Part shown: positions 3,440 to 64,000 of the stretch, piece after piece
How the letters are laid out: each line of letters starts with the position of its first letter
Numbering within the stretch: position 1 is the first letter of the stretch
DNA from: Epichloe hybrida
Lineage: Eukaryota > Ascomycota > Sordariomycetes > Hypocreales > Clavicipitaceae
Direction of reading: 5' to 3'
DNA length: 64,000 nucleotides
Assembly (NCBI GenBank): GCA_019022495.1
Contig: JAFEKR010000024.1
Location: 186,001-250,000 of the forward strand
Made by a program: the position numbers and the translations under genes
The notes under the pieces: model-generated
What the model was told of the DNA's origin: nothing
Database searches by the model: none
What the model saw: only the letters and a program-made list of their open reading frames with translations

Positions 3440-4330
3440 TACTAACTACCTCATAGGACCTTTACTATTATATTCTTTAGAAGCCTAGTTACTACTTTAT
3501 ATAACTCTTTTAGATACTAAAGGAGACCTTTCTTTAGCTCTATAGCTAGCTTTAGAATAATACTTTGCTTAGGGATTTATAATACTAATTAGTTAAGCAG
3601 AAAGTAATAATATTCTTATAGATCTATACCTATAATAAGCCTTAAAGAAACATAGGGTATTAGTTTTATCTAAGCTAATTATTAGTATTATAGATTTTTT
3701 ATAAGTTACTTAACCTAGTAAGGAAACTATATATAAGATTTATTTATTAGCTAAACCCGGAGTTTATATTACTTATTATAGAATTAAATAATAGATTCCT
3801 TTAATTTAACGGTATAATTAGCGCTATAGATAGTATATATATTCCCGCATATATCTTACTTTTATAGTAGAAGAGGTTTTAGTTAAGGAAGAATAATATC
3901 TCACAAAATATACTAGTAGCCGCTAGCTTTAAGGGATTATTTTAATATATACTACCTAGCGCAGAAGGTTTTATTAATAATATAACCTTAATATAGATAG
4001 TATTATTAAAGTTATTTTTAATACCCTAAGGTTGCTTTTATCTTAGTAATATAGGATTTAGTATAAATTAGGGGCTAATCATGCCTTTTTTAAGAGTTTA
4101 GTATTATCTATAAGACTAAGCACTTACTAGTTAGCGACCTATAAACTAGGAAGAGCTCTTTAATTATTAGCACTTATAATTAAGAATAGTAGTTAAGCAA
4201 GTCTTTAGGTAATACAAGCAAAAGTAAAAGATTATTTACTATAGCGTAGCTAAATATAAGTTTCTTATGTAAATCAAGATAATCTATGCTATTACTAGTC
4301 TATTTAACTTTATTAAAATAGGTAGGAAGG
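3440..4330 (+). pseudogene. Relic of a HARBI1-like DDE transposase
   Basis: Read in one continuous + frame, this stretch keeps segments typical of fungal Harbinger transposases: ETFL-LYS near 3520, AIDSIYIPA with the first catalytic Asp codon at 3829, RKNNISQN and a FKGLF-YILPSAEGF block near 3890-3975, and a C-terminal IKIIYAITSLFNFI stretch near 4280. Where the second catalytic Asp is expected (3979-3981) the codon is AAT (Asn). Where Glu is expected (4195-4197) it is AAG (Lys). Both are G-to-A changes, and nearly all stops are TAA/TAG in place of likely Gln, Arg or Trp codons. Harbinger elements often carry a second, Myb-like gene; I could not demonstrate one in 4331-5730. Confidence 0.72.
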
Positions 4331-5730
4331 AACCTAATGAATTTAAAGCATATAAGATAGAGCTATTACCTCTAGATAAGCGTAAAGCTCTTTAAGCAGC
4401 TACTAGGCAAGCTAATAAGATAAATTAACGCTATATAGGGTTATAAATTCGTAAATAAGTCGCTAAGTAGCTTTAGGATTAATACTAAAGTATAGAATAG
4501 GTTAAGGATATATATATTAGATAAAATTAGTAGTATTATTAATAAATTATAGCTTTTATGCTAATAGTGCTATAGAGAGAAAAGTGATAATACACACGCC
4601 TGTGGAAAATATTAATACCCTTGCTTATTTAACCTAGCTAGGCCTAACACTAAAGTTTAATTTAACCTACGCTTTCTTTACTTCCCTTAACAATAATACA
4701 TTCTAAATAAGAGTATTTACATAATCCTCCTTTAACCATAAGATAATTCAAATTACTATAGCTATCCTAAGCTCTTCGCTATATAATTAATAGTCCTTAA
4801 GTGCCTATGTAATATCTTCTGTATTTATAGACCTTAGGGAAAAGATATACTACCTAGGGCCTATAGTGTGTAGCCTAAGGACCTTTAATATAACCTCTAA
4901 AAGCTCTATTAACTATACTATAGCCTTTCGCTTCTACAAGCTCTTTAGTAATCTATTTAGCTATGATTTACTAGGTGTAAACCTAGTAAAAGGATTTAAT
5001 AAGTAGCTATAGGCTAGCCTTAGAGAACTATAACTAGGAGAGTAGCTATCTCCTATGATTTTAGAAATATCTAGGTAAAGCAAAGAATTATTATTAACTT
5101 TAAAGGGATTATTATTATCCTAAATCTCTTATATAAAACAAGGATTATTATTATTAGTACCTTATTATATACCTCTAGTATTATCTTCTTTATTATATAG
5201 TTCTAAAGAGCAGCTGCCTTGCCTTATTTCCTCCTTTACTATAGTAAATCCTTTATTATCCTAAGCCTTAAGAATCCTATCACTAGCTAGAAGGTCTAGT
5301 ATAAAGACCTCTACCTACTCTATAGCTATAAAAGACTTATTAATAATTAGAGGCTTCCTTATAATAGCTCTCCTAAACCTCTTATAAACCTCCTTAATAA
5401 ATTTAATATTCTACTTACTTATTTAAAGCTTTCTAGTCTCTTTATTATAAGTTATACTAGATTATAACTCTATAGCTTAGAATACTTACTATACCTTCTT
5501 TAGCTATATATAGTAATTCTTAATAAGCCTTACCTCCTATTAATAAGTTAGGAATTTAAGGATAAGGGTAGGAAGGAAGCCCTTAAAGAGGTCTCTTATA
5601 ATACTAGGCTTCTTATTATTAAGCTACTACTTACGCTAAGCTTTAAGTAGTAAATTTAGCAGGAAAAGCATCTCTATATTAGACTAGCAAGACTAATTAG
5701 TAAATAATGCCTGCAACTACGTGAATTAGG
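4331..5730. other. AT-rich remainder of the Harbinger-like element, left of the copia insertion
   Basis: Strongly AT-rich with many TAG/TAA triplets in all frames and no usable reading frame. By position it should hold the second gene or the 3' part of the split element; after the copia insertion the element resumes at 12112. No identity can be assigned because RIP has erased the coding signal. Confidence 0.5.
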
Positions 5731-5735
5731 ATATT

Positions 5736-6031
5736 TGTTGGAACAAGCATGATATCAACAAGGGTGCGCGCCTCTGATTAGGTGGGCGCGTTGCATCGCG
5801 GACCCACATGTCCGGCCTAACCGCGCCGCGATCGGAGTTGGCACATGTGGCCTCTTCGCTAATGACCCTGATTAAGGCCCCTTTTCCTATGATAAATAGC
5901 ATACCCTCTTTGCTTCTATTTAATCCCTCTTTTACTTACTTTAATAAACTAGAATATATAATAATTACGTGCACTTTAGTCCACCCCGAAAACCTTATGC
6001 GTAGGTTAATGGTATCCTATAGATACTAACA
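5736..6031 (+). repeat. 5' LTR of the copia element
   Basis: 296 bp with TG...CA ends in the form TGTTGG...CTAACA. It differs from the 3' LTR at 33 positions by my count, all transitions, with no indel. The outer (left) half is GC-richer and the inner half is more A/T-converted. A weak TGGTTATC-like sequence just inside (about 6039) may be the decayed primer-binding site. Confidence 0.92.
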
Positions 6032-6599
6032 CTAATTAGTGGTTATCTCTATAGATACCATAGATTAGCAAGGTTTATAGAAGAGGCATTAGTATTAAGG
6101 ACTTACCTTATGAAAGAGGAAGTGCTACTTTAAGATACTAAATATACTAAGGAAGAAGTATATTCTAGCTCTCCTTTTACCTTAAGTAACTATAACTAGC
6201 TCTATGCCAAATCCAAGCTTATTAACTTAATTAAGGCCTAGTTAGTAACTAACCTAACCTATCTTTATTTATTTGATTAGCGTGTCTATTACGCGAACAA
6301 ACCCTTAGAAGCGTGTTTATTAAATAATTAAGGCCTAGTTAGTAACTAACCTAACCTATTCTTAATTATTTAATTAAACCTACTAAGGGGTAAAAACAAT
6401 AGCTTTACTTATAATCCTTTAGACTTCTATTAATTCTTTATTTCCCTTACCCCCCTATTTACCACTAATATTATAGTAAAACATTAAGATTAACTAGAGG
6501 GATCTAGAGCCTAAGACATTCCCTCTAATCATAAACGCACCTTCCCCCCTAAGGATACTAGAAAAGGAGCTAATCCATAAGTTACATCTTACCTCCTTA

Positions 6600-9500
6600 A
6601 CTATATATCCCCTAATTTATACTAATATATTATATAATAAGCACTAGAGAATAAGGAATTATTTAATCTTAAAGTAAACACTACCCCTAAAGAACTTATA
6701 GCCTAGATTCTTATTAAGAAAGCAACCTATAAATATAAGAACCTATACTTACGAACCCTATTTACTATCTTTAGTAATAACTTTAGAGGATAGAAACAAG
6801 AAATATTCTAAGTAGTAGATCCTAAAGCTATAAAGAGTTTTTAAGACTTTCTCTTCTTTAGTAGCATTTACATAGACCTATAGAGTTGCTATAAGATAAT
6901 AGTCTTGCTTAAAGATATTATTAACCGTAATAGATTCTATAATTAGAAAGAAGAAGAAATACAGGAAGTTACTAGGAAGTATTCCCCCTTTAAGAGGTAA
7001 ATAGCGGAGAAGGACTTTTATAAAGACCTCCTTCCTATTAGTATCCCTTCTTTTAGAGATTAACTAAAGTAACTAATTACTCTATATTATCCCTAATCCC
7101 CTTAACTACTATAATCACTTCTGTTCTATTCCTAGATTCTGTTACACTAATCCCTAAGCATACTAAGTATAAGGCAAAGGTATAATAGCAAAGGTAATCC
7201 CCCTATTACAAGCCCTTAACTATAACCCTAGACCCCCCTTATTTCCCCTCCTATAATAAGGCACTATAATCCCCCTCTATAATCTAGGACTATAGCACCT
7301 TTTCTATAAGATTTAATTATCCTTATTCCCCCTTAGGAGATAGGCTAACCCTTATTAAAGCAACTACTTAATCTTAATAAATTTTATAGTAATAAGAGTA
7401 TTAAGTATAGCGCTAGGGAGTATAATATTCTTAATATTAAGCTCTTAACCTATTAAAGGAAGTGTAAAATACTAGGAATTACATAAGAATAGTTAGGCTA
7501 CGGTTTTAAGTTTATGCTAAAAGGAAGACCTCTATAGTACTTCTTAGAGAACCTTTTAGGCTAAGAAGACCCCTAAGATCTCCTAACTCTTATCCATAGG
7601 ATTAGGCAGAAGTTTAAGACAGATAATATGTATTAAAAGAACCGTCTATTATAGGGAAGATTATAACTACTCATAATTATCCAAGAGAACCCTAGTAAAT
7701 TAAAGATTAAGTGCTTTAAAGACCTTATAATAAAGCTTTTAAATCTCTAAAGGGTAAATCCTTATAGATCCTAGTTAGAATTAGACCTCCGTAGTTAGAT
7801 TCTAAATGCCTACAAAGGAATCCTGGAATATAGGGCCTATATTATTAATTCTCCTGTTAACCTCTAACGCTTTTATAAACGGATAAGGATATTAATTAGC
7901 AAATCTAAAGCTTTAATTAATTAGTAGTAGTTCCCTACGGAAGCTAGCACTAAGGAACACTTTTAGACTAACTATAAGTACAATAGAAGAGGCAAGGAAG
8001 CCTAGTATAGTCAATCTTTATTAAAGAGCAAGCCTTAACACTTAAAAAAGTATTATATATGTAGCAAAGAAGGTTATTAGTTAACTAAACACTTAGATAA
8101 GGACTAGAAGAAGGTATTCTAATGATTTAAGAATTACTCTTGCACAGACTTAACAGCTTCTTTATATAATACATTCCTAATATAGTATAAAGGTAATAAT
8201 AATCCCGAATTAGCTAAGGATAATAATATTAACTAATATCTAACAGAACTTAGTTTTAGTAAAGAAGATAGTAATGGCTAAGTGCCCACGAGCTTCTTCA
8301 TACACAGGACCACTTACAACAGCCATATAACTACTAAGATTCTTGCTAGTAGAGCAATAACTTATACTCTAGTTAAGAAGAATTTATTTAATCTTTAGGA
8401 ACTAGATAAGGCACTAAGCGTATTTATACTTAAAGAATAATATTCATCTAGAACCTTTAAAGGTATTATGGCTAACATAGGTACTACAGGATGTTTATTA
8501 GCAGGCCACCCTTAATTCTTAGCTTTATAAAGTGTAATACTAACTATTACGCTTAATAAGTTAGATACTAGGAAGATAAAGATTAAATTCGGCCCTAGAG
8601 AACTAATTAAGGCACTTAGATTAATTAAAGTGCTAACTCTGTTTGGAATTATTCTCTTTTAGGTAATCCCTATAAACACTCCCTTTCTCTTATACCTTAA
8701 TAATATAACCTGCCTAAAGATTAATTTCTATATATTAGAGAATGTTCTATAGCAAGGGAATATTAAGGTTTCTATTATACGTAAATAGGGGTATATATAA
8801 ATGCTTCTTAATAAAGAAGAAAGTATTGCTTAGAGTTATCTCACAGAGATTAAGCTCCGCTAATTATATTAATACTTTAGACACCCTTTAGTTTAATATC
8901 TTTATAATTTACTATGTAAATTAGGGTATAAGGTTAAGTTTAAAGCTATTAAGAAACTAACTAAGGTTTGCTAGCAGTGCTAATTACACGCAGATAGCCC
9001 ATATTAGTTTAAATTCACTCTTTAGGATAAATATACCTATAATTACGAAATCATTATAGATATTATATATCTTAATAGTAACCGCCCTATTCTACAAGTT
9101 ATTAATATAGCTATATCCTTTAATATAGCTAGATTTATTAAAGATATCTCTGTAAAAACCACATGGGAAGCACTCTATCTTTACTAGATTAACGTCTATC
9201 TAGGCCCCCTAGATTTAATTATTACAGATGCTAGAACAACCTTCAGAGGCAAGGAATTTAAGCAGCTTGCGTTATTAATAGTAATTAAGATTAAAGACGT
9301 CCCTATTAAGGCTTACTATAGCATTAGTAAGGTTAAGCAATATCACAGGCCGCTCTAAAGAGCCTATAATATTATCTAACAGGAATGCCTGACAACGCCA
9401 GAGCCTGTGGTATTGCAAATAGCAGTCAAAGCTATAAATAACACCGCAGGATTAAATGGTCTTATGCTAATAGTCCTTATTTTTAGCGCGTATTCTTATA

Positions 9501-11570
9501 TAGTTAAGGAATTACCTCTATTACTAGATATTACGTAGCAAGCCCTTATAATCTAACTAGTAATAAAGGAAGTTAAGCGCATTTATACCTAGTAGAAAGT
9601 TAGTAATGCCCTTGCTACAAGGAACAGTCCTAACACCTCTATAACCGTTAGCCTCCCGCTAGAATTGCTTGTACGCGTGTAGCGCGAAGGCAAGGGATAG
9701 GCAAGTCCCTATAAGCTATTAGCTATAGAGAGCAAGACTTACACTCTTAAGCTCCCTTAAGGCCCTAAGGCCTTTAGATTAATATCTATTAGGCCTTTTT
9801 ATAAAGATCCTAATAAAGAGAGACCTCCTAAGAGCGTAAATAACCAAGACGCCTCCCTATAGCTTATAGCTACCCCTCCTGCTAATCCCCTAAGGCAAGG
9901 ACCTAGAAGACCTTAGAAGAACCCCCCTGTTATTATATCTGATGTTAATTACGTAAATTAAATAAAAGATAAGACTAATGTCTTTCTATTAGCTAAGGAA
10001 AGCTTTAACCTTAAGCTTATAATCTAATTACATAAGGAAGGAATCATTAAGACCCCTAGCAAACCCTTTAAGCTATCTACTAAAGCTAAGATTAATTCTC
10101 TGATTAAATAAGGTGTGTTTGAATTTATTAAGTATAATAAAAGAGAGTATAGTAGAGTTTGAATTTTTAATTCCTATATTATTAATAAGGTAAAGGGTAA
10201 GACAACGGATCTATATAAGAAGTTAAGGCTTGTGATCTAAGGTTATAGCGATAAGAAGAAGCTAGTGATTCTTACACAGGCCCTAATAATCTAGCAAGCT
10301 AGCTAGTGATTAATCCTTATGATAGCACCTGCGTTATTATTAGTAGGCCTTATTCTCTAGCTTCGCGATATTACACAGGCCTATGTATAAGCACAAACGC
10401 TTCTTAGTTATATAATCCTAGCCCGAATCCCTATCTAAATCCATTACCTATACCCTATAGGTATAATAATATAAGTGATTAAGCCTCTATATAGTATTAT
10501 AGAAGCTAGCACCTACTAGTAGGTAACGTATTATTGTCACTATAAAGAAATACTCCAGATAATAACCTCTATGTTTAACCTATGCCTGCTTGTGATAATA
10601 AAGGAGAACCTAACCTTCGTGTGTATAGGGATACAGACTGACAATATAATTAGACTATCTAACCACGAGTTCTCTTAATAAGAGGAAGATTAATTAAAAG
10701 CTACTTCTTTTGCTACTAAGCTAAAGCAAATCCTTTTCACAGGGAACCTACTAACCTTTAATAGTAGTATTATTACTCTTAAAAATAATATAATTACACT
10801 AAGGTAAAAGGGCTAGAGTAGAAAGCTTTAGTTAATCCTACTAACTAATTTAAAATAGGTATACATAGAACAACAAGCTTAAGGCGCGTATATTACCTTA
10901 ATTTACTAACCTAAAGCCTGCTTTAACCTCTCTATTGCTGCATAACACTAAGAGCTATTACCTTAAGATATAAAGAGCCTAAACTAATAGATTTAATAGC
11001 AAATCAATAATCTAAGCTAAGGATTAAGGTTTATACTATTTAATCTTAAAAAGGTAAAGCTTTTTGCATTTATAAATAGATTATTTGCTAACAACTAGGA
11101 CCTTACTTCCTAGCTAGGCTATATGCTTATCCTAGCTAGTAAAGTCTAAGAGGAAAGCACCTTTATAATCTAAGGTAATATTATACACTATAGCTTTACT
11201 AAGAGTAAAAGAGTTATGAGAAGTGTGCTTGCCTCTGAGATCTACAGCATGGTTACTAGTGCTAATATAGCTCACGCGGTCTTGATAATACTTAGGTTAA
11301 TTACCTATTAATTAAACCTCCCTACGATTCCTGTTATTATCTATACTAATTTATACTCTTTATATAAATACCTTGTTAAGCTTAGTACCATGAAGGAGAA
11401 GTGTCTTATAATTAATATTATAGCCCTTTATTAATCATATAAGCAATGAGAGATCTGTGAGATTAGATAGATTAATAGGAATGATAACCTTACTAATGTA
11501 TTTACAAAGGCATTACTAAATAAGGCATTTAAGAGGTTTATTACAAGCAATAAGGCAACTATTAGGATAG
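6600..11570 (+). pseudogene. Relic of copia gag-pol
   Basis: The original + frame can be followed through RIP stops. Integrase: the first catalytic Asp codon is at 9059-9061 and the second at 9227-9229. The Glu expected 35 residues later is now AAG (Lys) at 9335-9337, so the DD35E spacing is intact but the residue is lost. Reverse transcriptase: the fungal QTDD box survives as Gln-Thr-Asp-Asn, with the second Asp codon now AAT at 10643-10645. RNase H: the first Asp position near 11066 reads Asn, followed by a recognisable TKSKRVMRSVLASEIY stretch. Integrase before RT is the Ty1/copia order and excludes Gypsy. The gag part (about 6600-8000) is too decayed for residue-level reading. Confidence 0.85.
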
Positions 11571-11815
11571 AAGGGTAGGTTACATGATTGTAATGTTTGT
11601 GTTAATCTAATGAGATTAAAGGTGTTAAGAATTAGGCTTACTTATCCTTGCATAGGCTTATAGATTGGATTTTATTGTTTATTATACCCCTTCCCCTTAC
11701 CCTTTTCTTATGATATTATTCGTAATTATTTAATCTTATTCATTCCTTAATTCCTATTTACTTCTCTTATTAATATTATACATTAATAATCATGTTAAAA
11801 AGAGAGAGTTTCTAG

Positions 11816-12111
11816 TGTTAGAACAAGTATAATATTAACAAGGGTGCGCGCCTCTGATTAGGTGAGCGCGTTACATCGCGGACTCACATGTCTAGCCTGA
11901 CCGCGCCGCGATTAGAGTCGGTATATATAGTCTCTTCGCTAATAACCCTAATTAAGGCCCCTTTTCCTATAATAAATAGCGCACCCTCTTTGCTTCTATT
12001 TAATCCCTCTTTTGCTTGCTTTAATAGACTAGAATATATAATGATTACGTGCACTTTAGTCCACCCCGAAAACCCTACGCGTAGGTCAATAGTATCCTGT
12101 AGATACCAACA
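11816..12111 (+). repeat. 3' LTR of the copia element
   Basis: 296 bp, from TGTTAG to CCAACA, followed directly by the ATATT target duplication. It is most A/T-converted in its inner (left) half and better preserved in its outer half, the mirror image of the 5' LTR. Confidence 0.92.
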
Positions 12112-21927: not shown

Positions 21928-23205
21928 CGTAGAAAGAAGAGGCGATGAAAAGTTAGAAAGCAAGAACAGGGCAATGGTTGTTACTATCGAACGGCCCGCG
22001 ACTAGCCAAATGCGACGAGGGCGGCGGGCGGGCGGGGCTGGTCCGAGGTGGGACGATCGTCGATAAAGACGTTGGAGACTACATGTACATAAGTTTGGGG
22101 CGGGGTCGAGCGAGAAGTCGTTTGTTTGGTCGACAATGGTGGGGAGGGTTCTTTCAACAAAGCAGGGACTGGACCTTTTCTGGCGTCGTGTTAAGAGTCG
22201 GTCGCCCAGGTAATAACGATGTTCTAGTTGAGTTGTACAGATTCCCGGACGAGGGCACGCGACGCTTCGCGATTGGATTATCAAAGAGGCATGTCTGGCG
22301 GCGGCCACGGTGTCGGGTTCGGGTGGTGATGACACAGCCGCGAACTTCAGAAGGGACGTGAGAGAAAGAAGTGGATGAGCTATGTAACGTTGCACGGGAT
22401 ATCAGGGGTATATAAGTTTAAATATGTCCATGTTTTTCGGAGTTGGACCTTCCAAACGAACTAATTTCTTGCCTTTTACCAGAGATTACCGTGGAATGGC
22501 CAAAAATACTCCGATGCAAAAATCTTTGGAACGCTCAGAGTTCGACTCCCGTCGATGTCTGTCTTTTTTGTTTCTTAAAACATCGCGCGTGTGAAAGCGC
22601 AATGTATCGTAGCCAATGCAGTAATTACAGTAGCAAAACGACGACACTTTTGTAAATTAGCGCCAACGTCGTCACATTATCTGTCATCCGTTTTGCTTTG
22701 CGCTCAACTCTAGCAATTCACCCACCCGCCGTGCGTTTTGGATGCCGCCTCGATCATCTAGCTTCTTCCTATCGAAATGCAACGTCGACACTTTAAAATT
22801 CAAGGCCAGCACTAGCTGCCGAGAATAGAGCATGAATCCATACATTGCTAGGAAAGAGACTGGTTAACAACGACTGCCTCCCTCCCTTCCAGAGAAGAAC
22901 CACTCGGGGCGACGCCCGGATCATGACGGATGGGCATCGCTTACGGGAATGGAACAAGCTGGTTTAAGTAGATTATCCCGCGTCATCTCCATGTAAAACA
23001 GGGAGCAAAGGATGAGTCGAAACACGGCATTGCCCATGTTGATGTGGCAGGGTCGAAGGGGTTGCCCGCCGGATGACTCACCAGTGTGCAAGGCAGAACG
23101 CACCTATAAATGAGGCCGTGGGAAATGCACACTCTTGGCTGGCTCTCAGCCAGCCAGTCAGTCACTCGACCACATCGAACCCTCACAGAAATCGTCGTCA
23201 CCCCG
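21928..23205. other. Intergenic region between the divergent DUF255 and cyclase genes
   Basis: Nearly 1.3 kb without a supportable gene. A pol III B-box-like string followed by a T-run lies at about 22538-22567, but it does not fold as a tRNA. Promoters of both neighbours should lie at the ends. Confidence 0.5.
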
Positions 23206-35119: not shown

Positions 35120-35247
35120 GCCCCCGTAGCACAGTGGTAGTGGTAAGTTTATCGTCAACCTACAATCGTCTCCAGCATCAGTCTCTAACATGGCACAGCG
35201 TGTCACTCGTAATGACAAGGTCGTCTGTTCGATCCAGGCCGTGGGCA
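35120..35247 (+). tRNA. tRNA-Thr(CGT): tRNA-Thr(CGT) with a spliceosomal-type intron in the D-arm
   Basis: Mature segments are 35120-35142 and 35199-35247 (72 nt, no CCA). Acceptor GCCCCCG pairs with CGTGGGC (one C-U mismatch, 5-68). T8 A9; D-stem GCAC with GTGC around loop AGTGGTA. Anticodon stem TGTCA/TGACA is fully paired around loop CTCGTAA, anticodon CGT, reading ACG. Variable loop AGGTC; T-arm GTCTG-TTCGATC-CAGGC; discriminator A. The A box (TAGCACAGTGG) and B box (GTTCGATCC) are intact. A 56-nt insert (35143-35198) separates positions 24 and 25, not the canonical 37/38. It starts GTAAGT, has CTAAC at 35185-35189 and ends CACAG. The D-stem closes only when exactly this insert is removed. 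Alternative: a disrupted pseudogene. The acceptor mismatch leaves some doubt about function. Confidence 0.85.
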
Positions 35248-35258
35248 CATGCGTCTAA

Positions 35259-35265
35259 TTTTTTT
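35259..35265 (+). terminator. Pol III terminator (T7)
   Basis: Seven consecutive T begin 12 nt after the tRNA 3' end, as expected for RNA polymerase III termination. Confidence 0.8.
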
Positions 35266-35821: not shown

Positions 35822-36580
35822 ATGTCGACTCCACGAACCAAGCGCCAATTCGCAGGCTCCTCCGCCGACCCTGCCCAGCGCCAAATCACATCCTTCTTCC
35901 CCTCCCGCGCAGCCGGCGACGAAGCGGCTCCGTCCGAGGCCCAGACCTCCCGCCAGCCATTGCTGCCGTCCAGCGTCCAGGCCAACCTCCTGACCGTCGG
36001 CATGCGGATTCGCAAGTCCGTCCCAGAAGGCTACAAGACCTGCGGGCCAAGCGCATTCAAGCTCTGGACCGACAACACGCCCCCGCCACACCGGGCATCC
36101 GCCTCGTCCGCGTTGCGCGCCTCGTCAAGGGAACTCGTCCCGTTTTGCGGCATCAACAAAGTCGGCGGTCTCGACTTCCAGCCCGCGCATGCGAGGGACG
36201 TTGACGACAACGACGACGACGACGACGAAGAGGTCCCAGACCTGGATGCCGTTCCGGAGTTGACCTTGTCTCAGGAGAGTGTGGAGAGCAACGTGTCTGA
36301 ATCGTCGTCGCGCAAGCGAGTCTATGATGACAACGACCGTGACGACGAGCCGACCATGCTGACGCAGCCATCCAAAGGGTGGGATGAGGAAGTCAGTCCA
36401 CGAAGCTTTGCGCCGTCTGAATGGCGGACTTCTCGCGTCATGGCCGTGCCTAGGTCCCGCGCGAGGAGGAGCGCCGTCCCCTTCAAGGGCATCGACCAGG
36501 AGAACATGGCCGTCGATGGGGACTTTGAGGATGCTGACTTTCTTGTTCTCGGGGAGGCTCGCGAGATGGATATGTCATGA
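35822..36580 (+). CDS. Ribonucleotide-reductase inhibitor family protein (Spd1/Dif1-like) with PIP box
   Basis: Single exon, 252 aa, ATG in a good context (ACCATGT). An N-terminal PCNA-interacting motif QRQITSFF lies at about residues 19-26 (Q-x-x-I-x-x-F-F). The conserved VGMRIRKSVPEGYKT segment (about residues 59-73) resembles the short motif shared by fungal RNR regulators of the Spd1/Dif1/Hug group. The rest is disordered and acidic (DDNDDDDDEE), with a C-terminal ...FEDADFLVLGEAREMDMS. Family knowledge: Spd1 restrains RNR and is destroyed through PCNA-coupled CRL4-Cdt2. The PIP box here would suit that, but this is inference. It could instead be another PCNA-binding replication protein. 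Confidence 0.72.
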   Translation: MSTPRTKRQFAGSSADPAQRQITSFFPSRAAGDEAAPSEAQTSRQPLLPSSVQANLLTVGMRIRKSVPEGYKTCGPSAFKLWTDNTPPPHRASASSALRASSRELVPFCGINKVGGLDFQPAHARDVDDNDDDDDEEVPDLDAVPELTLSQESVESNVSESSSRKRVYDDNDRDDEPTMLTQPSKGWDEEVSPRSFAPSEWRTSRVMAVPRSRARRSAVPFKGIDQENMAVDGDFEDADFLVLGEAREMDMS

Positions 36581-36977: not shown

Positions 36978-38591
36978 TCACAAGCCCACAAAAGGGTTCC
37001 GAAACTCCAACAAGTCCCGTTGTCCGTAGAAATCTCCCGCGACCGTCAAAATCATGCTGAGCGTTGCACGCAAATTCATACGAAGCCGTGTTTTAGCCTC
37101 TTCCTGCGTCTCGCTTTCTTCCCGTTGCTCCTCTGTATCTGACTCATCGTCTAGCCTTGCTAAAAGACCTCTTTTGGCGGCTTCGAGATCACCATGCTCG
37201 TCTCGAGCCTCGCCATCTTCTGAGCCGGAGTCGATTTCCATGGCTGCATCGTCTCCGTTCACGGACTGTTCCAGGACTTCGCCCTCTTCCCCGTTCTCAT
37301 TTTCATTCTCTTCCCCGTTCTCATCTCCATTCGCGTTGTTCGTGGCATCAACGTGTGGATTCTCATCGTCACCCGCGGTGTACTGATCATCTTCAGGGGC
37401 GTCGCCATGCGCGACGTTTTCTTCTTCTGCATCTTCCCCATTCATATACAATGCATCCTCATCCCTGCTACTCGCATCAGCGTCCTCGTTCACGCCAAGT
37501 TCTCCATCTGGTAGCGCATCTCGCATAATAGCCATCTCCTCCAGGCTTATGCCAAGCAGCACTGCACGGCGACCAAGATCTCGTATCCATCCTATCTCAG
37601 TGTGGTTGAGCTCACCGCGCTCCGGTAGTCTTGCCAGCAATCCCCAGATCCACTGGGTCGTTCGCTCAGAAAGTGTATGGCCGCGTTGCAGGAAATTGCC
37701 GCCTATGAGGACGCGCAAGATCAGAATCACTGTTTCTTTGGACATGAGTGCCAGTTGGAGTGGGTGGGGGTCGGTATTGCGTATAAGGTTTGCCCATACT
37801 TTGTTGGTGTTGGAGTTGCGTCCGAAGGGGGCTGCGTGTGTGACTTGAGTAGACGATAAACGCTTTGCCGCATCTGTGGGGGGCTTGGAATGCAGTAATT
37901 CACGTAAACGGGCATACTTCTTCATCAATGATGCAAAGTAAGACTCATGAAGAAGTTGTACCCGAGCATCACCTTCAACATCACTGTCAAATTCTCCGTC
38001 TTCGCCATGGATTTTCCAGTCTTCGTCGGGCATGGCGATGTAAGCCCCGTCGTCGTAATATCCTTGCATGACTTCTTTGGTATATGCAATCGGAGCAGCA
38101 GCTTCAAGATCATCATCAATCTCGTCGTCGTCATTGTCTCGGTCGTTATTTTGTAAATCAGGGGGGAGTTGTGGACCGATTTGGACTTTGGGAGCGACGA
38201 GTAGGTGTGGAATGTTGTATGCCTCTTTTCTACATACTCACCATATCAGCATCATCTAAAATACGGGGGAGAAAAATTACACGTTCAGTAAAGAGAAAAA
38301 AGATTGCCGTTTGGGGAGTTGCGAGCTTGGGATTGCATATGCAGCTTACCTTACTGAGTGCAGATAGGCCATGGCGTCGGCATCATCCTCAAAGTCCGAC
38401 TCGTCGCCGCAAGGTATGGTGGTTGCATCTCCCAGGCTTGAGAAGACATATTTCTGGCCCCAAGTAGGATCTATGGATGAATTTTGGTGCTGATGGCGCG
38501 GCGTGGCGCCAGTCTGTCTCTTTGCTCGCTTGGGGCCAGGTTCCGAGATTTCTCCCTCGTCGAGGTCCTGGAGCTCTCGTTTGGAAGGCAT
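36978..38591 (-). CDS. Gemin2/SIP1-family SMN-complex protein
   Basis: Gemin2 organises the Sm ring during snRNP assembly. Exons 38350-38591 and 36978-38229 give 497 aa. The N-terminus MPSKRELQDLDEGEISEPGP is charged. Exon 2 starts KEAYNIPHLLVAP. The Gemin2 core is recognisable in WIWGLLARLPERGELNHTEI, WIRDLGRRA, and near the end LRATLSMILTVAGDFYGQRDL, which parallels the human ending. A long acidic insert (about residues 330-430: EDAEEENVAHGD, NENENGEEGE) splits the core. Neighbouring splicing genes in this window (IST3, PRP38) are probably coincidental. Confidence 0.83.
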
Positions 38592-41135: not shown

Positions 41136-41930
41136 TCAAGGCGACCGTGACGGCGACGCGCTCCGAACGCTGCCTCTCCCGCGATCGACATGCATAGAAT
41201 CACCCTCCCTCTCCCCCTCTTCCTCCCCATCACCGCCATCGTCATGACCGTTCCTATGTTCGTTATGGCTGCCCGGCGCACCCACCCCTTGTTCCTCCTC
41301 ATCCTCACCCAATATATCCTCCAGGTCCCCAAGCGGACTCACTCTCGGCTCCAGCAGTTCCAAATCTTCCAGGATCTCTCTCTTGGGCATCTTCCACAGA
41401 CTCGTCGCACAGATCCTTTCCTTGACGAGCAAGTCGTCCACGAATTCGTCCACATACGTCAGCGACGTCCCGTTTCTCCCCTTCCGCCTCAGTTTCCTGC
41501 GGTCCTCAAGAAACGGCTCCAGCGTCTCGTACACATCCTTGGCCTGCCTGGTCATGCGAAAGTAGAAGCTGGCCAGGGCCCGCAGGTACTTGAACTGCTC
41601 GCCGCCAAAGGACAGGTACTCTGCCAGGATCTCGTCGCTGGGCCCCAGCTCGAGGAGCTTGAACGCGAGGCACAGGAAGGGACTGGGCTTCTGGGAGTCG
41701 CCGTAGGTGCCTCCTATGAAGGAGACGTGCTCGACGACGCGGTCGACGATGTCGGCTTCGTTGAGGGCGAAGCACTGCTCCTTGTAGAAGTGGGAATCGA
41801 TGATGCGGTCCCTGACGGCCTTTTCCATTATGGTGGCGGGGTTGAGGCCGTTGGGGGCGAGTGCGGCGCTGGAGCCGCGCTCGTCGAGGAAGCGGCTCGC
41901 GTCGGCGTGGACGGTGTCGCGTTTGGACAT
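41136..41930 (-). CDS. prp38: Pre-mRNA-splicing factor PRP38
   Basis: U4/U6.U5 tri-snRNP-associated protein needed for spliceosome activation. Single exon, 264 aa, from the ATG of MSKRDTVHADASRF. The PRP38 domain covers most of the protein: NPATIMEKAVRDRIIDSHFY, YKEQCFALNEADIVDRVVEH, VSFIGGTYG, PFLCLAFKLLELGPSDEIL, FKYLRALASFYFRMT and RRKGRNGTSLTYVDEFVDDL. It ends with an acidic stretch and a short RS-like tail (SVRSASPSRSP). A long antisense frame (41190-42161) overlaps it and is a codon-bias shadow. Confidence 0.95.
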   Translation of the reverse strand: MSKRDTVHADASRFLDERGSSAALAPNGLNPATIMEKAVRDRIIDSHFYKEQCFALNEADIVDRVVEHVSFIGGTYGDSQKPSPFLCLAFKLLELGPSDEILAEYLSFGGEQFKYLRALASFYFRMTRQAKDVYETLEPFLEDRRKLRRKGRNGTSLTYVDEFVDDLLVKERICATSLWKMPKREILEDLELLEPRVSPLGDLEDILGEDEEEQGVGAPGSHNEHRNGHDDGGDGEEEGEREGDSMHVDRGRGSVRSASPSRSP

Positions 41931-42221
41931 GGCGGGTGGTTTGGTGATGACCGGCTTTTTATTTTCTCGCTGCTTTTTTTGGGGGGGGGAGAAGATTTGG
42001 CGGAGACGATGCGCTCGATAAGATTGTTGCTGTGCCAACGATTGGTGGGGCTGCAAATGACGGGCAAACGGCAACTTGAAGTTGACATCCTGGATCGAAC
42101 GAGAAGTTGTCCAACTCTGAAAAACCATTGTGCTGTGATTTTGTCTCTTATTTTGGTTTAAAAAAAATTCACTCGGTTGACTCGAAGAACTGACTTGATT
42201 GGTTGATTGTCCAGGACTGAA

Positions 42222-58192: not shown

Positions 58193-59151
58193 GAGGAAGG
58201 TTCAGACGTGATTTTTGCCGACGAAGCGATGCACTCTGTGGATGTTGATGATGGCAGCTCGTTGGACAACGAAGCAAGAGAAGCTCACAATTCTCTCACT
58301 GACTGGCACCACTTCGCCGCCTCCGGACTCTACCGAAATCGAGTGTGGAGACCTCAAGGATGAGGACGAACTCGAAATGGCGCCCGTCGTTCTTCGATGA
58401 TGAGATGTGGGAAGGTTTGAAAGTCTGATTCTAATAAAAAAGAGACGTTAGCAGAAGCTGCTGAGAATGAACTGGGCTCACCGTATGCAGTCGCTTTCTA
58501 GAAACCGAGGCAGTAACAGCCATCGGTCAACCAGGCAAACAGTTTTGTCAGCCGATGAGAGTGTAACCTACCGGGAAGGGCGTTCGACCGAAAGACGATG
58601 GGATCTGGCGCGTTGTCCCAGGAAGCTGGTGTGGAGGAAGCTGAATTGGAAATTGAGAGGCCCCGTCTCCAGCTAAGCGCTGCTGAGTGTGATGTGTTCA
58701 GTGGAATGAGAGCCACATACAGTGCTGGACGCGAGTGGCATTTTCACCAACCACCGATAGGGGATTTCGTCAAGAACCAGAACCAGAATCCTATCCTCGT
58801 CAAGCTTTCTGATTTACTCTATTACTTAAAGTTTGACAACACCCCAGCGATCTCATTACTACTTGCTAGAGCCCATCAATGAGCCTCGTGATCATTACTC
58901 ACGTGATGACGTTTACAGTGCACAACGCTGGCCACGCCACCGATATTTACTGTGGGGGGGAGATGCGGGATGTAATAACGATCTTCCGGAAACCCTCTGC
59001 GTCCAATCATGCGCGTCTATTCTTTTTGGAAGCTTCACAGGGTCTCGACTTCTCGAATCGCCAGAATGGTAAAGTGGCAGTAGAGTAGTCTCCAAGACAT
59101 TGATCAGTCCAAACTCGTCGCTCGCGAATCGTCAAGTTGGTCGCGAGCACA
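58193..59151. promoter_or_regulatory. Divergent promoter region between the FHA gene and MGR2
   Basis: 959 bp between divergent start codons. No frame in it resembles a protein, and no repeat was seen. Confidence 0.5.
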
Positions 59152-59709
59152 ATGCCTCCTGTTGCAGCAGTTCCCACTGGCGGCCAACATGGTCCATCAA
59201 ATCTTGACAAGTGTATGCTCCAACCATCTGATGCACATTATTTGAGAACTAACATACCCATCTACAGTCAAAATGGGTGCCATGATGGGTGGAAGTGCGT
59301 ATAATCACGGAGCTTTCCCTCTCTCTCTTGTACCTCTGCTGACGTTTATGAAGCTGTTGGAGTTATAATGGGTTTCATATTTGGTATGAGCTTGTCGCCT
59401 CGCTTGTGTTCGCACGTCCTTGAAGGCTAACTTCAGCCAGGAACGGTCAACATTTTTCGATACGGCGCTGGGACACAGGGCATCATGAGGACACTTGGGC
59501 AGTACATGGCCGTGTCTGGAACAACCTTTGGGTAGGACTTGAAAACAATTGCCCAGATGATTGTTGCAAGCTTACATTGTCACAGCTTCTTCATGTCCAT
59601 CGGCTCCGTCATTCGATCAGACGCTGACCCTAAGCTACACGAGATGTACTCGCGAGCACAAAGACGACCGATCGTTATGATGACGAATCCTGCTTGGCGA
59701 AAGGCTTGA
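59152..59709 (+). CDS. mgr2: TIM23-associated MGR2 / ROMO1 family protein
   Basis: Small two-helix inner-membrane protein that gates lateral release from the TIM23 translocase. Five exons: 59152-59212, 59268-59294, 59354-59383, 59441-59531 and 59586-59709, giving 110 aa; exons 2 and 3 are only 27 and 30 nt. The N-terminus MPPVAAVPTGGQHGPSNLDK is followed by FKMGAMMGG, TVGVIMGFIFG, RYGAGTQGIMRTLGQYMAVS and TTFGFFMSIGSVIRSD, which align well with yeast Mgr2. Both transmembrane stretches keep their Gly-rich packing motifs. The phases close across all four introns, each with GT donor and AG acceptor. Confidence 0.93.
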
Positions 59710-61449
59710 AGGTCAGGCGGTACTCGTACATGATGCATATTCGTCAATGTGAACATCACGTCATACTACCTCAGCAGCAACTCTTGTACGATATATACAA
59801 AACCGATTTGATTCACAGAGTTTCATTAGAATCACAAAATATGTGGGTGGCTTGTTCATATGCAAAAAATAAGGAGTAATGCGGGTGCAGCGCGTTTGTA
59901 GGTCAGGTCAAAGCGACAGCACCAATATGATATCGTCACTCGCAGTCATCGTCGTAGGCGCTTGCCAGGCGCTTAGTGGGGTTTATACGAGGTGAACTGA
60001 TCCAGCATTTGTCACGCGGCACACAATAACAATGCGTACAAAGTCGATCTGGAGCGCAGCAATGGCGAGGTTACATGACTTCAGATAAGCCACCAGCAGC
60101 TGGCATCTTCATCCTCATCACTCTGGGCTTCTGCAACAGGTAGGCGCAGCCCCCTGCACATTGGACAACGCACGGCTGCGACGCTCTTCAGACCTGGTCA
60201 CGTACAACTCCGGCCATGCATGCAATGCAATGCAATGGCATGACTTGGCTGTGTTCGCTGCTTCCTCGTTGTACGGCATGCCACAACCACAGGAGCACGC
60301 GTCAATCCGATCATGGAACAGAGCCACGCATGCCATGGGGTTTCCCTTCCCAGTAGCTCGCCATGCCAACCTGTCATTTATAACTCGCTTCTACAAGGAG
60401 TACAGAGCAGCTCTCTGGTTTCGTTCTTCTTATTGTCCCTTATCCCTGTTGCCTTCTCCTTTGGGGAACCCTACAGGGCTTGGTTGTCATGCGATGGGCT
60501 GGCTGCCTCTCTACTCCGTATTATGCGCGCCAGAAAAAATGAACCGCGGAAACGCCAGATTGAAGCAAAGTGTCTTACTATCTCTTTGGTTGAGCGCTGA
60601 ACTCCACAGGCCGCACGACAACCATGGTCGAGATTTCCCCAGACGAATTTGTCGTAATGATGTGAGTACGTAAATCCGCCACGACGGATCGTTAATTACG
60701 CAGCAGCAACGGGGTCTAGAGCAAGAGTGGCATTCCTTTCCATGTTTGTTTACTGCGTACGGAGTACTTCGTATCCTCAGGCATATTCCCGGTTTCACAC
60801 ATCATAGTGCCAGACGAAGTCCCTCGGCAAGTCAGAGTGGTGAATACAGTGATGCACGGCACCAAAATTAGCCAAGGCGGCCGCATGATATTGTCCAGCG
60901 GGCACACTGGGTATCACGAGAAGTAGCGAATCGTTGCTGCCGCGTATTTAACAATCCGTCGCTGCATGTTCACGTACTCTAACGACGTGAAGCCCTGCCA
61001 CAATGTCTACCTTCTTGGCGGCTAATGCTGCCATTGCACAGGTGGTTTTCCTCTTCTACACTTTCTTGCAGGTCGAAAATCACATTAGCTATGCATGGTT
61101 TTCTCCATTGCTTGATCTTTGGTTGCGGCCGCAGAAGCAAAGCCGAGCGTGGGCCAGGCGAAGAGACTGGCGAGGAACTGCTATATATATCGTCGTACCT
61201 ATCATAACACGAAGGCGACCGACAATTCACAACCAAAGTACATCGGGTCTTCATGATTTCACACTCAATCACTCTTTGTTTTGCGGCCTAGTCCTACAAG
61301 AGACAATTGTGGCTGTTGATGGAACATGGGATCTTCACTCAGCAACGGCAGGACTGTGACTTATTCGTCTACAAATCTTGGAGGAAGGCTCACACAAAGC
61401 AGGACAAACGGGTATGCTTGTTTCAAAACCTCCGCCGCCTTACTCATGT
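59710..61449. other. Intergenic region upstream of the multicopper oxidase
   Basis: No supported gene. Two exact TACGGAGTA/TACTCCGTA motifs lie at 60512-60520 and 60758-60766. An open frame at 61003-61359 starts with a hydrophobic stretch and might be an upstream exon, but I cannot join it to the oxidase. Confidence 0.5.
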
Positions 61450-63342
61450 ATGAACCAGACCTCGTATGGGGTATGTGCTTACCGCGTTTCTTTCAGAAAG
61501 TCCTTGTTGGGAACTTTACTTGCCCCTGTGCTGCCTCTTTTCCTAGACAACAACCCTCTGCCAAATGGATCCCCATGGAGTCTGCTGGATTCAACTACAG
61601 ACTATTATGACCACTACCCACGGACTGGCGTGATACGCCCGTACGACTTCACCATCAGCCGAGGACTCATCGCCCCGGATGGTTATCAGCGCGAGGTTCT
61701 TTTAGTCAACGGCGCATTCCCCGGACCCCTAATCGAGGCCAATTGGGGGGACACTATCCAGGTGACGGTTCATAACAACATCACGAGTACCGGAGAAGGC
61801 GCGACCATGCACTGGCACGGGTTTCTTCATCGAGGCAAGCCATGGGAGGATGGTGTTCCAGGCATGACTCAGTGCCCCATCGCTCCTGGGAAGAGTTACA
61901 CCTATTCTTTCGAAGCTGAATTGTACGGGACATCATGGTACCACTCGCACTACTCGGCACAGTACGTAGGAGGGACCGTTGGCCCAATGGTTATTTACGG
62001 GCCGCGAGTCAAATCCTACGACATTGACGTCGGGCCCATTATGCTGTCGGACTGGTACCATCGAGAATACTTTACCCTGGTAGAAGAAACAATGAAGCCC
62101 AACGGTCGCCCCTTCAAGTCGGACACCAACTTGATCAACGGAAAAGCCAACTTTGACTGTTCAAAATTGCCACCGGACGACAAAACGCCCTGCCAGAGCA
62201 ACGCCGGCATCGCCAAGTTCAGATTCAAGCGCGGCAAGACTCATCGCCTGCGACTCATCAACTCTGGCGGCGGGGCACTCCAGCGCTTCTCCATCGACGA
62301 GCACACCATGACAGTCATCGCCAACGACTTTGTCCCAGTCAAACCCTACGACACCACAGTCGTGACTCTTGGCGTTGGCCAGCGAACCGACGTGCTCGTG
62401 AAAGCTGACGGTGATCGCGACGCCTACTGGATGCGCAGCAACATTTCCGAGGCATGTAGTTTGGCAAATGACCCCCTTGCTCACGCATCAATCCACTATG
62501 ACGATGCAGACGACTCCAAGGAGCCAGAGTCGCGGGCTTGGGATATCCCCGACCCCAAAACGTGTGCAAATGATGACTTGGCCCTTAGTAAACCATTCAT
62601 GGAACGAAGGCCCATTGAGCCGGATTTGACGTATGACATGGAGGTGAAGGTATTCAAGAACGAAAGCAATATAACGTTGTGGTCCCTAGACGGCGTGACC
62701 TTTCGAGGAAACTACAATAGTCCAACGTTGCTACTGAGCGCCCTGGGGAACCTTACCTTTGAAAAGCAGTGGAACGTCAAGAACACGGGTGCCGCAAAGA
62801 GCGTTCGTGTAAATGTCATTAACAACACGCCCGTGTCGTACGTGCATCTCATTACTCCAGGATGAGCGGCAGAACGGACACGGATAGACTGCTGACACGT
62901 ACATGATGACTAGGCACCCTGTGCATCTGCACGGATTCAACATGTACGTCCTCCACGAAGGACCCGGCCAGTGGGATGGCACCATGACCAACAGAGACAA
63001 TCCTCAGCGTCGCGATGTCGTGCAAGTCCGGAAGAACGGCCACCTTGTGATTCAGTTCGACGCGGCATCGAATCCAGGCATGTCTCACCCCGGAGTACCA
63101 GTGCTCCATGACCGTGCCAGAGGACAGATGACTGACGTGACGAATATTATGCAGGCGTTTGGCTGTTCCACTGCCATATAGCCTGGCACTCCTCCGCGGG
63201 GTTCCTCGCACAATTTCTCACCAATCCAGACAAAGTCGCCCAGTTCCAGCCCAGATTGCCTCAGGTTGTGGCCGAAACGTGTCGACAATGGGGCGACTGG
63301 ACGCATACAAACATCCCAGACCAGATCGATAGCGGCCTATGA
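61450..63342 (+). CDS. Laccase-like multicopper oxidase
   Basis: Secreted or cell-wall oxidase of phenolic or pigment precursors. Exons 61450-62837, 62914-63077 and 63155-63342 give 579 aa. The copper ligands are complete: HWHG (from residue 121), YHSHYS (His165, His167), HPVHLHGF in exon 2, and HCHIAWHSSAG in exon 3, which includes the T1 Cys. The conserved DNNPLPNGSPW and LLVNGAFPGPLIEANWGD blocks are ascomycete laccase features. The start is uncertain. ATG 61450 gives a basic n-region and a hydrophobic segment (SLLGTLLAPVLPLFL) before DNNPLP, usable as a signal peptide; an in-frame ATG lies at 61414, and an upstream exon is possible. Intron 2 (63078-63154) is GC-AG. The exact substrate cannot be told from sequence. 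Confidence 0.9.
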
Positions 63343-63597
63343 GGAGTTGGCTGAACCACGAAACTAAGATGGAGCTTGGTTAATGTGCATGCTGTGTATC
63401 TTTAGACATTGGACATGATAGGATAACATATTAGTGCACACAAATTCAACCGATTGTTCATCGACGTGTTCCACGTGTCTTTTTTTTTTTCCCGAAGCAC
63501 TGTACTCGACCCAACGCCTTTTGTGAATCGCGATGCTTTGTTTTCACCAAGCAGCGTGATGAGCGCTTTTTACGGCGAAGGCTTTTCGTGCTCAATT

Positions 63598-64000
63598 CTA
63601 ATGGTCTTCGCCGGGCGCTTCTGGCTCAACCAACTTGGATGGTCGCGACTCCTTGGGCGTCTCCTCGTCAGATTGCTTCACCTCATCCACCTCGTCTGCA
63701 GGAGTCGGTGAGTCCTTGGCAGCGCCAGAACCAGCGCCAACAGAAGCTTGTGGGGAGGCAGCGTCCTCGGCGTCCATTTCCGGTTTCTCTGTTCCAGAGT
63801 CAAAGGCACTTCCGTAATCACTGCCCGAGTCTTCGAAATTGAGTGCCGATTCCATGCCCTCGGCCAATTTGTTGACTTCGTCCTCTACCTCTTGTCCCCG
63901 CTCCTTGGCACTTCGAAGCTGTCGTTCAGCTTCATCATGGCCAACAAGCCCCCGCCAATACGTCTCCAACTCTTCCCGCCAGCCCAGCTCGTCGGCCAAG
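63598..64000 (-). CDS. C-terminal part of an unrecognised protein, cut by the window edge
   Basis: An open frame enters from the right edge and ends at the TAG at 63598-63600. The visible 133 residues begin LADELGWREELETYWRGLVG, followed by a helical charged stretch (AERQLRSAKERGQEVEDEVN). The tail is acidic and Ser/Pro-rich (FEDSGSDYGSAFDSG, ending PEAPGEDH). I do not recognise the family. The real N-terminus lies beyond the window. Confidence 0.65.
   Translation of the reverse strand, partial: LADELGWREELETYWRGLVGHDEAERQLRSAKERGQEVEDEVNKLAEGMESALNFEDSGSDYGSAFDSGTEKPEMDAEDAASPQASVGAGSGAAKDSPTPADEVDEVKQSDEETPKESRPSKLVEPEAPGEDH

Follow-up and report, generated by a model that had tools for sequence, protein, structure and literature searches.

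The locus at positions 35120..35247 of the window (the whole stretch of 64,000 nucleotides that was analysed) is very probably a functional nuclear tRNA-Thr(CGU) gene that would be transcribed by RNA polymerase III (pol III) and from whose transcript an intron in the D-stem would be removed by the major spliceosome. This reading is founded on the anatomy of the gene, its conservation in a second, syntenic copy that is split at the same place (C111:67248-67380, minus strand; the C111 copy), the failure of the searches performed to find an unsplit copy, and the occurrence of U6 genes with the same kind of intron; from these sequence features we infer transcription, the polymerase, splicing, the order of the steps and the use of the product in translation. 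The split gene may be the sole source of tRNA-Thr(CGU); we consider it probable that every Thr(CGU) gene of this genome is split, that this state predates the split of the Epichloe-like parents, and that cognate decoding of ACG needs the spliceosome.

Anatomy of the split gene

Exon 1 (35120..35142, plus strand, 23 nt) comprises tRNA positions 1-24, i.e. the 5' strand of the acceptor stem, the 5' strand of the D-stem, the D-loop and the first three bases of the D-stem 3' strand; exon 2 (35199..35247, plus strand, 49 nt) comprises positions 25-73 with the end of the D-stem, the anticodon arm, the variable loop, the T-arm, the 3' strand of the acceptor stem and the discriminator A. Between them lies a 56-nt U2-type (GT-AG) intron (35143..35198, plus strand) that interrupts the D-stem at tRNA positions 24/25. 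Exons, insert and T7 run were located as the preliminary description, which had proposed a tRNA-Thr(CGT) gene split in the D-arm, had given them. The 5' splice site GTAAGT is found at 35143..35148, the branch-site motif CTAAC at 35185..35189 with the presumed branch A at 35188, 10 nt from the intron end, and the 3' splice site ACAG at 35195..35198 (all plus strand). These signals had been named correctly; the distance from the end of CTAAC is 9 nt to exon 2 and 6 nt to CAG. The exon/intron junction can be placed in two ways one base apart, since a G stands at either edge: both possible cuts yield the identical product, and just one of them is GT-AG. Both copies contain GTRNGT and, 5-25 nt ahead of a YAG end, YTRAY, as is characteristic of U2-type introns; in shuffled inserts, the combination GTRNGT..YTRAY..YAG appeared in 1/1000000 and 9/1000000 cases.

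The intron is positioned in the D-stem 3' strand between the A box TAGCACAGTGGT (35127..35138, plus strand), which lies upstream of it and is left whole, and the B box GTTCGATCC (35227..35235, plus strand); both boxes were read from the sequence by the box consensus. A T7 run at 35259..35265 (plus strand), replaced by T6 in the C111 copy, is the likely pol III terminator. The claim of intact A and B boxes followed by a terminator thus holds, and by eye both boxes and the T-run are present in the C111 copy as well as in the window copy. These three elements are expected of a nuclear tRNA gene, and in its anatomy a GT-AG intron set among promoter boxes and terminator corresponds to the mRNA-type introns of pol III RNA genes such as U6.

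Joined, the exons give 72 nt that can be drawn as a cloverleaf, in which ARAGORN recognises a tRNA-Thr(cgt) with the anticodon CGT at 35208..35210 (plus strand), as expected for a nuclear tRNA-Thr. The stems are those described before: D-stem GCAC/GTGC, anticodon stem TGTCA/TGACA with the loop CTCGTAA, and T-stem GTCTG/CAGGC including one G-T pair; the single acceptor mismatch, C5.T68, is shared by the C111 copy. In the minimum-energy fold of the joined form calculated by RNAfold, the acceptor, D and anticodon stems are formed and the T hairpin is shifted; the ARAGORN drawing has the usual T-arm and cloverleaf. Excision is what restores the tRNA: at the unexcised locus, ARAGORN made no tRNA call with or without introns allowed, and Rfam at gathering scores gave no tRNA match in the whole window, in agreement with the expectation that standard scanners would miss the gene.

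The restoration was set against chance by an excision scan, in which every GT..AG stretch 40-100 nt long, on either strand of the window, was removed by script and the product submitted to ARAGORN. A junction-spanning tRNA was called in 7/26777 excisions, all seven at the split Thr locus: four were Thr(cgt) with this GT or its neighbours and three were spurious Arg(tcg), two of the latter from GT..AG pairs of the opposite strand. Two shuffles of the window in two-base blocks gave 0/28924 and 0/28568 such calls. In the same scan of C111:30001-100000, such a tRNA call was made in 12/28895 excisions, all at the second copy (six Thr(cgt) variants and six spurious Pro(tgg), four of these from opposite-strand pairs).

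According to the proposed mechanism, pol III would transcribe the gene from the intact A and B boxes through to the T-run; the wider spacing between the boxes should be tolerated by the transcription factors, as it is in tRNAs with introns at 37/38. The major spliceosome would then recognise GUAAGU, CUAAC and CAG and take out the intron, whereby C25 would be brought to G10 and the D-stem completed, which could not happen ahead of splicing. Thereafter the product would follow the usual tRNA route of end trimming, CCA addition and modification.

Two diverged copies of the gene

The exons of the two copies are identical in 72/72 bases (23/23 in exon 1, 49/49 in exon 2), whereas their surroundings have diverged. 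The inserts measure 56 nt (window) and 61 nt (C111), with 37/56 aligned bases identical and a substitution rate of 0.339; the rates in the flanks are 0.126 and 0.122 over 490 and 491 bases on either side, 0.141 and 0.143 in the nearest 291 bases on each side, and 0.041 in the downstream reading frame. At a flank rate of 0.124, the probability of 72 unchanged bases is approximately 7e-5. Both inserts retain GTAAGT, the block TCTAACAT that includes CTAAC, and the terminal ACAG; in each of them the branch A is 10 nt from the intron end, despite the unequal lengths. The retention of splice signals while the remaining intron diverges is a feature of U2-type introns, here seen in two copies of one genome that derive from closely related parents; a six-base block in the middle of the insert, CGTCTC, is also kept and matches no splicing signal known to us. 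As far as such a comparison reaches, the pattern is what a functioning tRNA interrupted by a functioning spliceosomal intron would leave; the D-stem intron predates the divergence of the two copies.

This conservation bears on the choice, raised in the preliminary description, between a tRNA matured by the spliceosome and a pseudogene in which an intron or short insert hit a redundant tRNA gene and left the exons as a relic. A relic would be compatible with the acceptor mismatch C5.T68, with splicing of Thr(CGT) being deduced from sequence, and with the chance that tRNA-Thr(TGT), which is generally held to be needed for ACA, might read ACG as well; the exons are nevertheless kept at 72/72 although insert and flanks diverged, the splice signals, A and B boxes and T-run are retained in both copies, and no other Thr(CGT) gene was found in the genome with the 72-nt and pattern searches described below. 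The joint conservation of exons and splice signals across diverged copies argues against a pseudogene, which we regard as highly improbable, and supports the spliceosome-matured tRNA.

The conserved intron signals have also to be weighed against the possibility that the tRNA splicing endonuclease (Sen complex) cuts at a non-canonical site and that GT-AG and CTAAC are coincidental. Introns in the D-arm are known from nuclear tRNAs of red algae (PMC9602550), and a bulge-helix-bulge motif drawn at the GT-AG cut would have 4/5 pairs of its inner helix in both copies and 3/4 pairs of its central helix in the C111 copy. Under the strict geometry applied, with a central helix of 4 pairs, this helix is nevertheless incomplete (2/4 pairs in the window copy and 3/4 in the C111 copy at the GT-AG cut, 2/4 and 2/4 at the cut shifted by one), the intron is situated at 24/25 instead of 37/38, and the splice-site and branch-site sequences are conserved. 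Because the position is wrong and the strict central helix is incomplete in both copies, the endonuclease is an unlikely agent, and its action at a site with fortuitous splice signals seems extremely improbable. A self-splicing intron was ruled out by the size of 56 nt.

Within the genome (79.9 Mb in total), the window and C111:30001-100000 share 25 colinear pieces of more than 250 nt that amount to approximately 46 of 64 kb at 77-95% identity, and the protein encoded at 35822-36577 shares 94% identity with an Epichloe festucae protein and 90% with one of E. bromicola, which places the genome in Epichloe or very close to it. The two regions apparently represent two subgenomes, as in hybrid Epichloe; two haplotypes would fit equally well. 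The segment 2863-12389 has no match above 250 nt among those listed for the syntenic C111 piece and, with a G+C content of 0.31-0.33 over 4001-12000 versus 0.47-0.59 from 12001 onward, looks like an AT-rich repeat block; 58496-64000 is likewise without a listed C111 match.

The neighbourhood of the gene offers a further explanation, namely that the intron is part of a pol II transcript, e.g. of the 5' leader of a ribonucleotide reductase inhibitor, from which the tRNA is liberated or which it merely overlaps. In its favour, an RNR_inhib-domain ORF begins at 35822 on the strand of the tRNA, 575 nt past the tRNA end, and the spliceosome normally works on pol II transcripts; set against this, the A and B boxes and the T-run are retained in both copies, the flanks beyond the gene show 12-14% substitution, and U6, a gene of the pol III kind, carries a comparable intron in this genome. 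A pol II origin is therefore held to be very unlikely, and pol III transcription of the split tRNA gene remains the preferred reading. Less than 7 kb from the tRNA, also, are ORFs for SIP1 (SMN-interacting protein; 36981-38069, minus strand) and a PRP38 family protein (41139-42128, minus strand), and a U5 spliceosomal RNA gene (22437-22541, plus strand; 71.1 bits versus a cut-off of 40) is the sole Rfam match in the window. That the splicing-related SIP1, PRP38 and U5 share the window with the split tRNA is probably a coincidence.

Threonine tRNA genes of the genome

An intronless tRNA-Thr(CGT) elsewhere, which the preliminary description had named as the observation that would speak against a spliced gene, was not found: a genome search with the joined 72 nt led to two exon-2 places and one exon-1 place only, and a pattern of CGT anticodon loop and T-loop, which does not cover every possible tRNA form, had 11 matches in the genome (84 for the reversed-pattern control), two of them Thr(CGT) and both split. 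For the other nine, the matched letters were assessed by eye, and ARAGORN reported no Thr at those loci. The count of Thr(CGT) genes that had been called for is thus two within these searches. The paralogous tRNA-Thr(AGT) is present in eight identical copies, all uninterrupted; the junction of the joined Thr(CGT) fits the alignment with it, CGTGTCACTNGTAATGACAAG being shared from position 25 on.

A tRNA-Thr(TGT) must exist to read ACA; it was not found in the genome by two patterns and one DNA similarity search. Among the 34 matches of the first pattern were 8 Thr(AGT), 2 Thr(CGT) and, as judged from the matched letters, 0 Thr(TGT). ARAGORN, with introns allowed, was run on 30 of these 34; a tRNA-Thr(tgt) that it proposed in L056 was judged spurious on account of its 1406-base intron. 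The second pattern had 34 matches (control 18), three of which were scanned by ARAGORN and yielded no tRNA, the remaining ones being judged by their letters except for those shared with the first pattern. The similarity search with Thr(AGT) returned eight matches, every one Thr(AGT). The Thr(TGT) gene may itself be interrupted by an intron. The failure to find a Thr(TGT) shows the tRNA census to be incomplete; nor can the genome-wide Rfam tRNA search (63 matches, 29 typed with ARAGORN) serve as one, because many isoacceptors are absent among the 29. ACG accounts for 70/232 Thr codons in 10 chosen ORFs of the 41 listed for the window (mechanical ORFs that may contain intron sequence), so that some tRNA must decode it; the split gene need not be essential, because Thr(TGT) could read ACG by wobble.

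A fixed-length pattern that combines an A box with a 5' splice site, spaced as in the split gene, matched four times in the genome (reversed-pattern control: six), i.e. at the two copies of Thr(CGT) and at two other places where ARAGORN made no tRNA call. Within this pattern of one D-loop length and one intron position, Thr(CGT) was the sole gene found to be split in such a way. For other tRNAs of the genome, such as Ile(aat), Arg(tct) and Ser(gct), ARAGORN reports short introns in the anticodon loop. With introns allowed, it misreads the C111 copy (L002 1500-1633) as a tRNA-Val(aac) with a 38-nt intron; because of this misreading, a false Val gene may be present there in automatic annotation.

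U6 and other known systems

Some fungal U6 genes had been said to carry mRNA-type introns, and this applies to the present genome: both U6 matches (C67 near 201691-201793, L026; C84 near 263041-263144, L027) are interrupted, on our reading, by a GT-AG intron that measures 60 or 59 nt. The layout is AACGATACAG, then the intron with CTGAC or CTAAC ahead of CAG, then AGAAGATTAGC; joining the exons restores the ACAGAGA box, inside which the intron sits. The two copies are identical from CGCCTTCGGG to the intron and across the 3' exon, and a B-box-like stretch, GTTCGAACC or ATTCGAATC, is found inside the intron. Because its U6 genes carry GT-AG introns, the spliceosome of this genome very likely handles one pol III transcript already. 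Neither match of the SRP RNA gene, usually also a pol III gene, contains an interruption (301 nt, whole model); this, the acceptor mismatch C5.T68, the shifted T hairpin of RNAfold and the kept CGTCTC are among the points that speak against spliceosomal maturation of the tRNA. According to PMC7827515, the promoter of U6 in Epichloe had not been identified.

Fungal U6 introns, first found in Schizosaccharomyces pombe, resemble the Thr(CGT) intron in that a small pol III RNA is interrupted by a short intron with GT-AG ends and a branch site of the fungal type. The two differ in their hosts: U6 is a component of the spliceosome, so that insertion by reverse splicing is readily explained, whereas the host of the Thr(CGT) intron is a tRNA, in which a helix is broken. 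Fungal U3 snoRNA genes also possess spliceosomal introns; their RNA class is again different from tRNA. Canzler reportedly surveyed U6 introns in fungi in 2016. A survey of that year on this subject is cited by PMC7827515 and PMC5832005, and the U6 intron of fission yeast is treated in PMC10484740.

The canonical introns at 37/38, processed by the Sen endonuclease and a Trl1-type ligase, likewise split a nuclear tRNA and leave the A and B boxes whole; unlike them, the Thr(CGT) intron is positioned at 24/25, has GT-AG ends and a branch site, and has an incomplete central helix in the bulge-helix-bulge test. Introns of the D-arm in Cyanidioschyzon merolae are regarded as endonuclease-type. The tRNA-Ile(UAU) of this alga is, like Thr(CGT), a nuclear tRNA with an intron in the D-arm, there at 12/13 (PMC9602550); in contrast to such introns, the Thr(CGT) insert conserves splice and branch signals. 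In the tRNA-intron review PMC4090602, the string 'spliceosom' occurs 0 times. Literature searched by title and start of the abstract, a scope outside which most subscription journals fall, yielded no spliceosomal intron in a nuclear tRNA. To our knowledge, no such tRNA has been described.

The splicing of nuclear tRNAs and that of mRNAs are taught as two distinct pathways. If the proposed reading is true, a spliceosome-dependent tRNA would join the two, the translation of one codon would be tied to splicing activity, the gain of introns by pol III genes would extend past spliceosome RNAs such as U6, and tRNA annotation could miss genes of this split type. Spliceosomal introns in genes of small non-coding RNAs are known from U6 and U3; what would be new in the present case is the class of the host, a tRNA.
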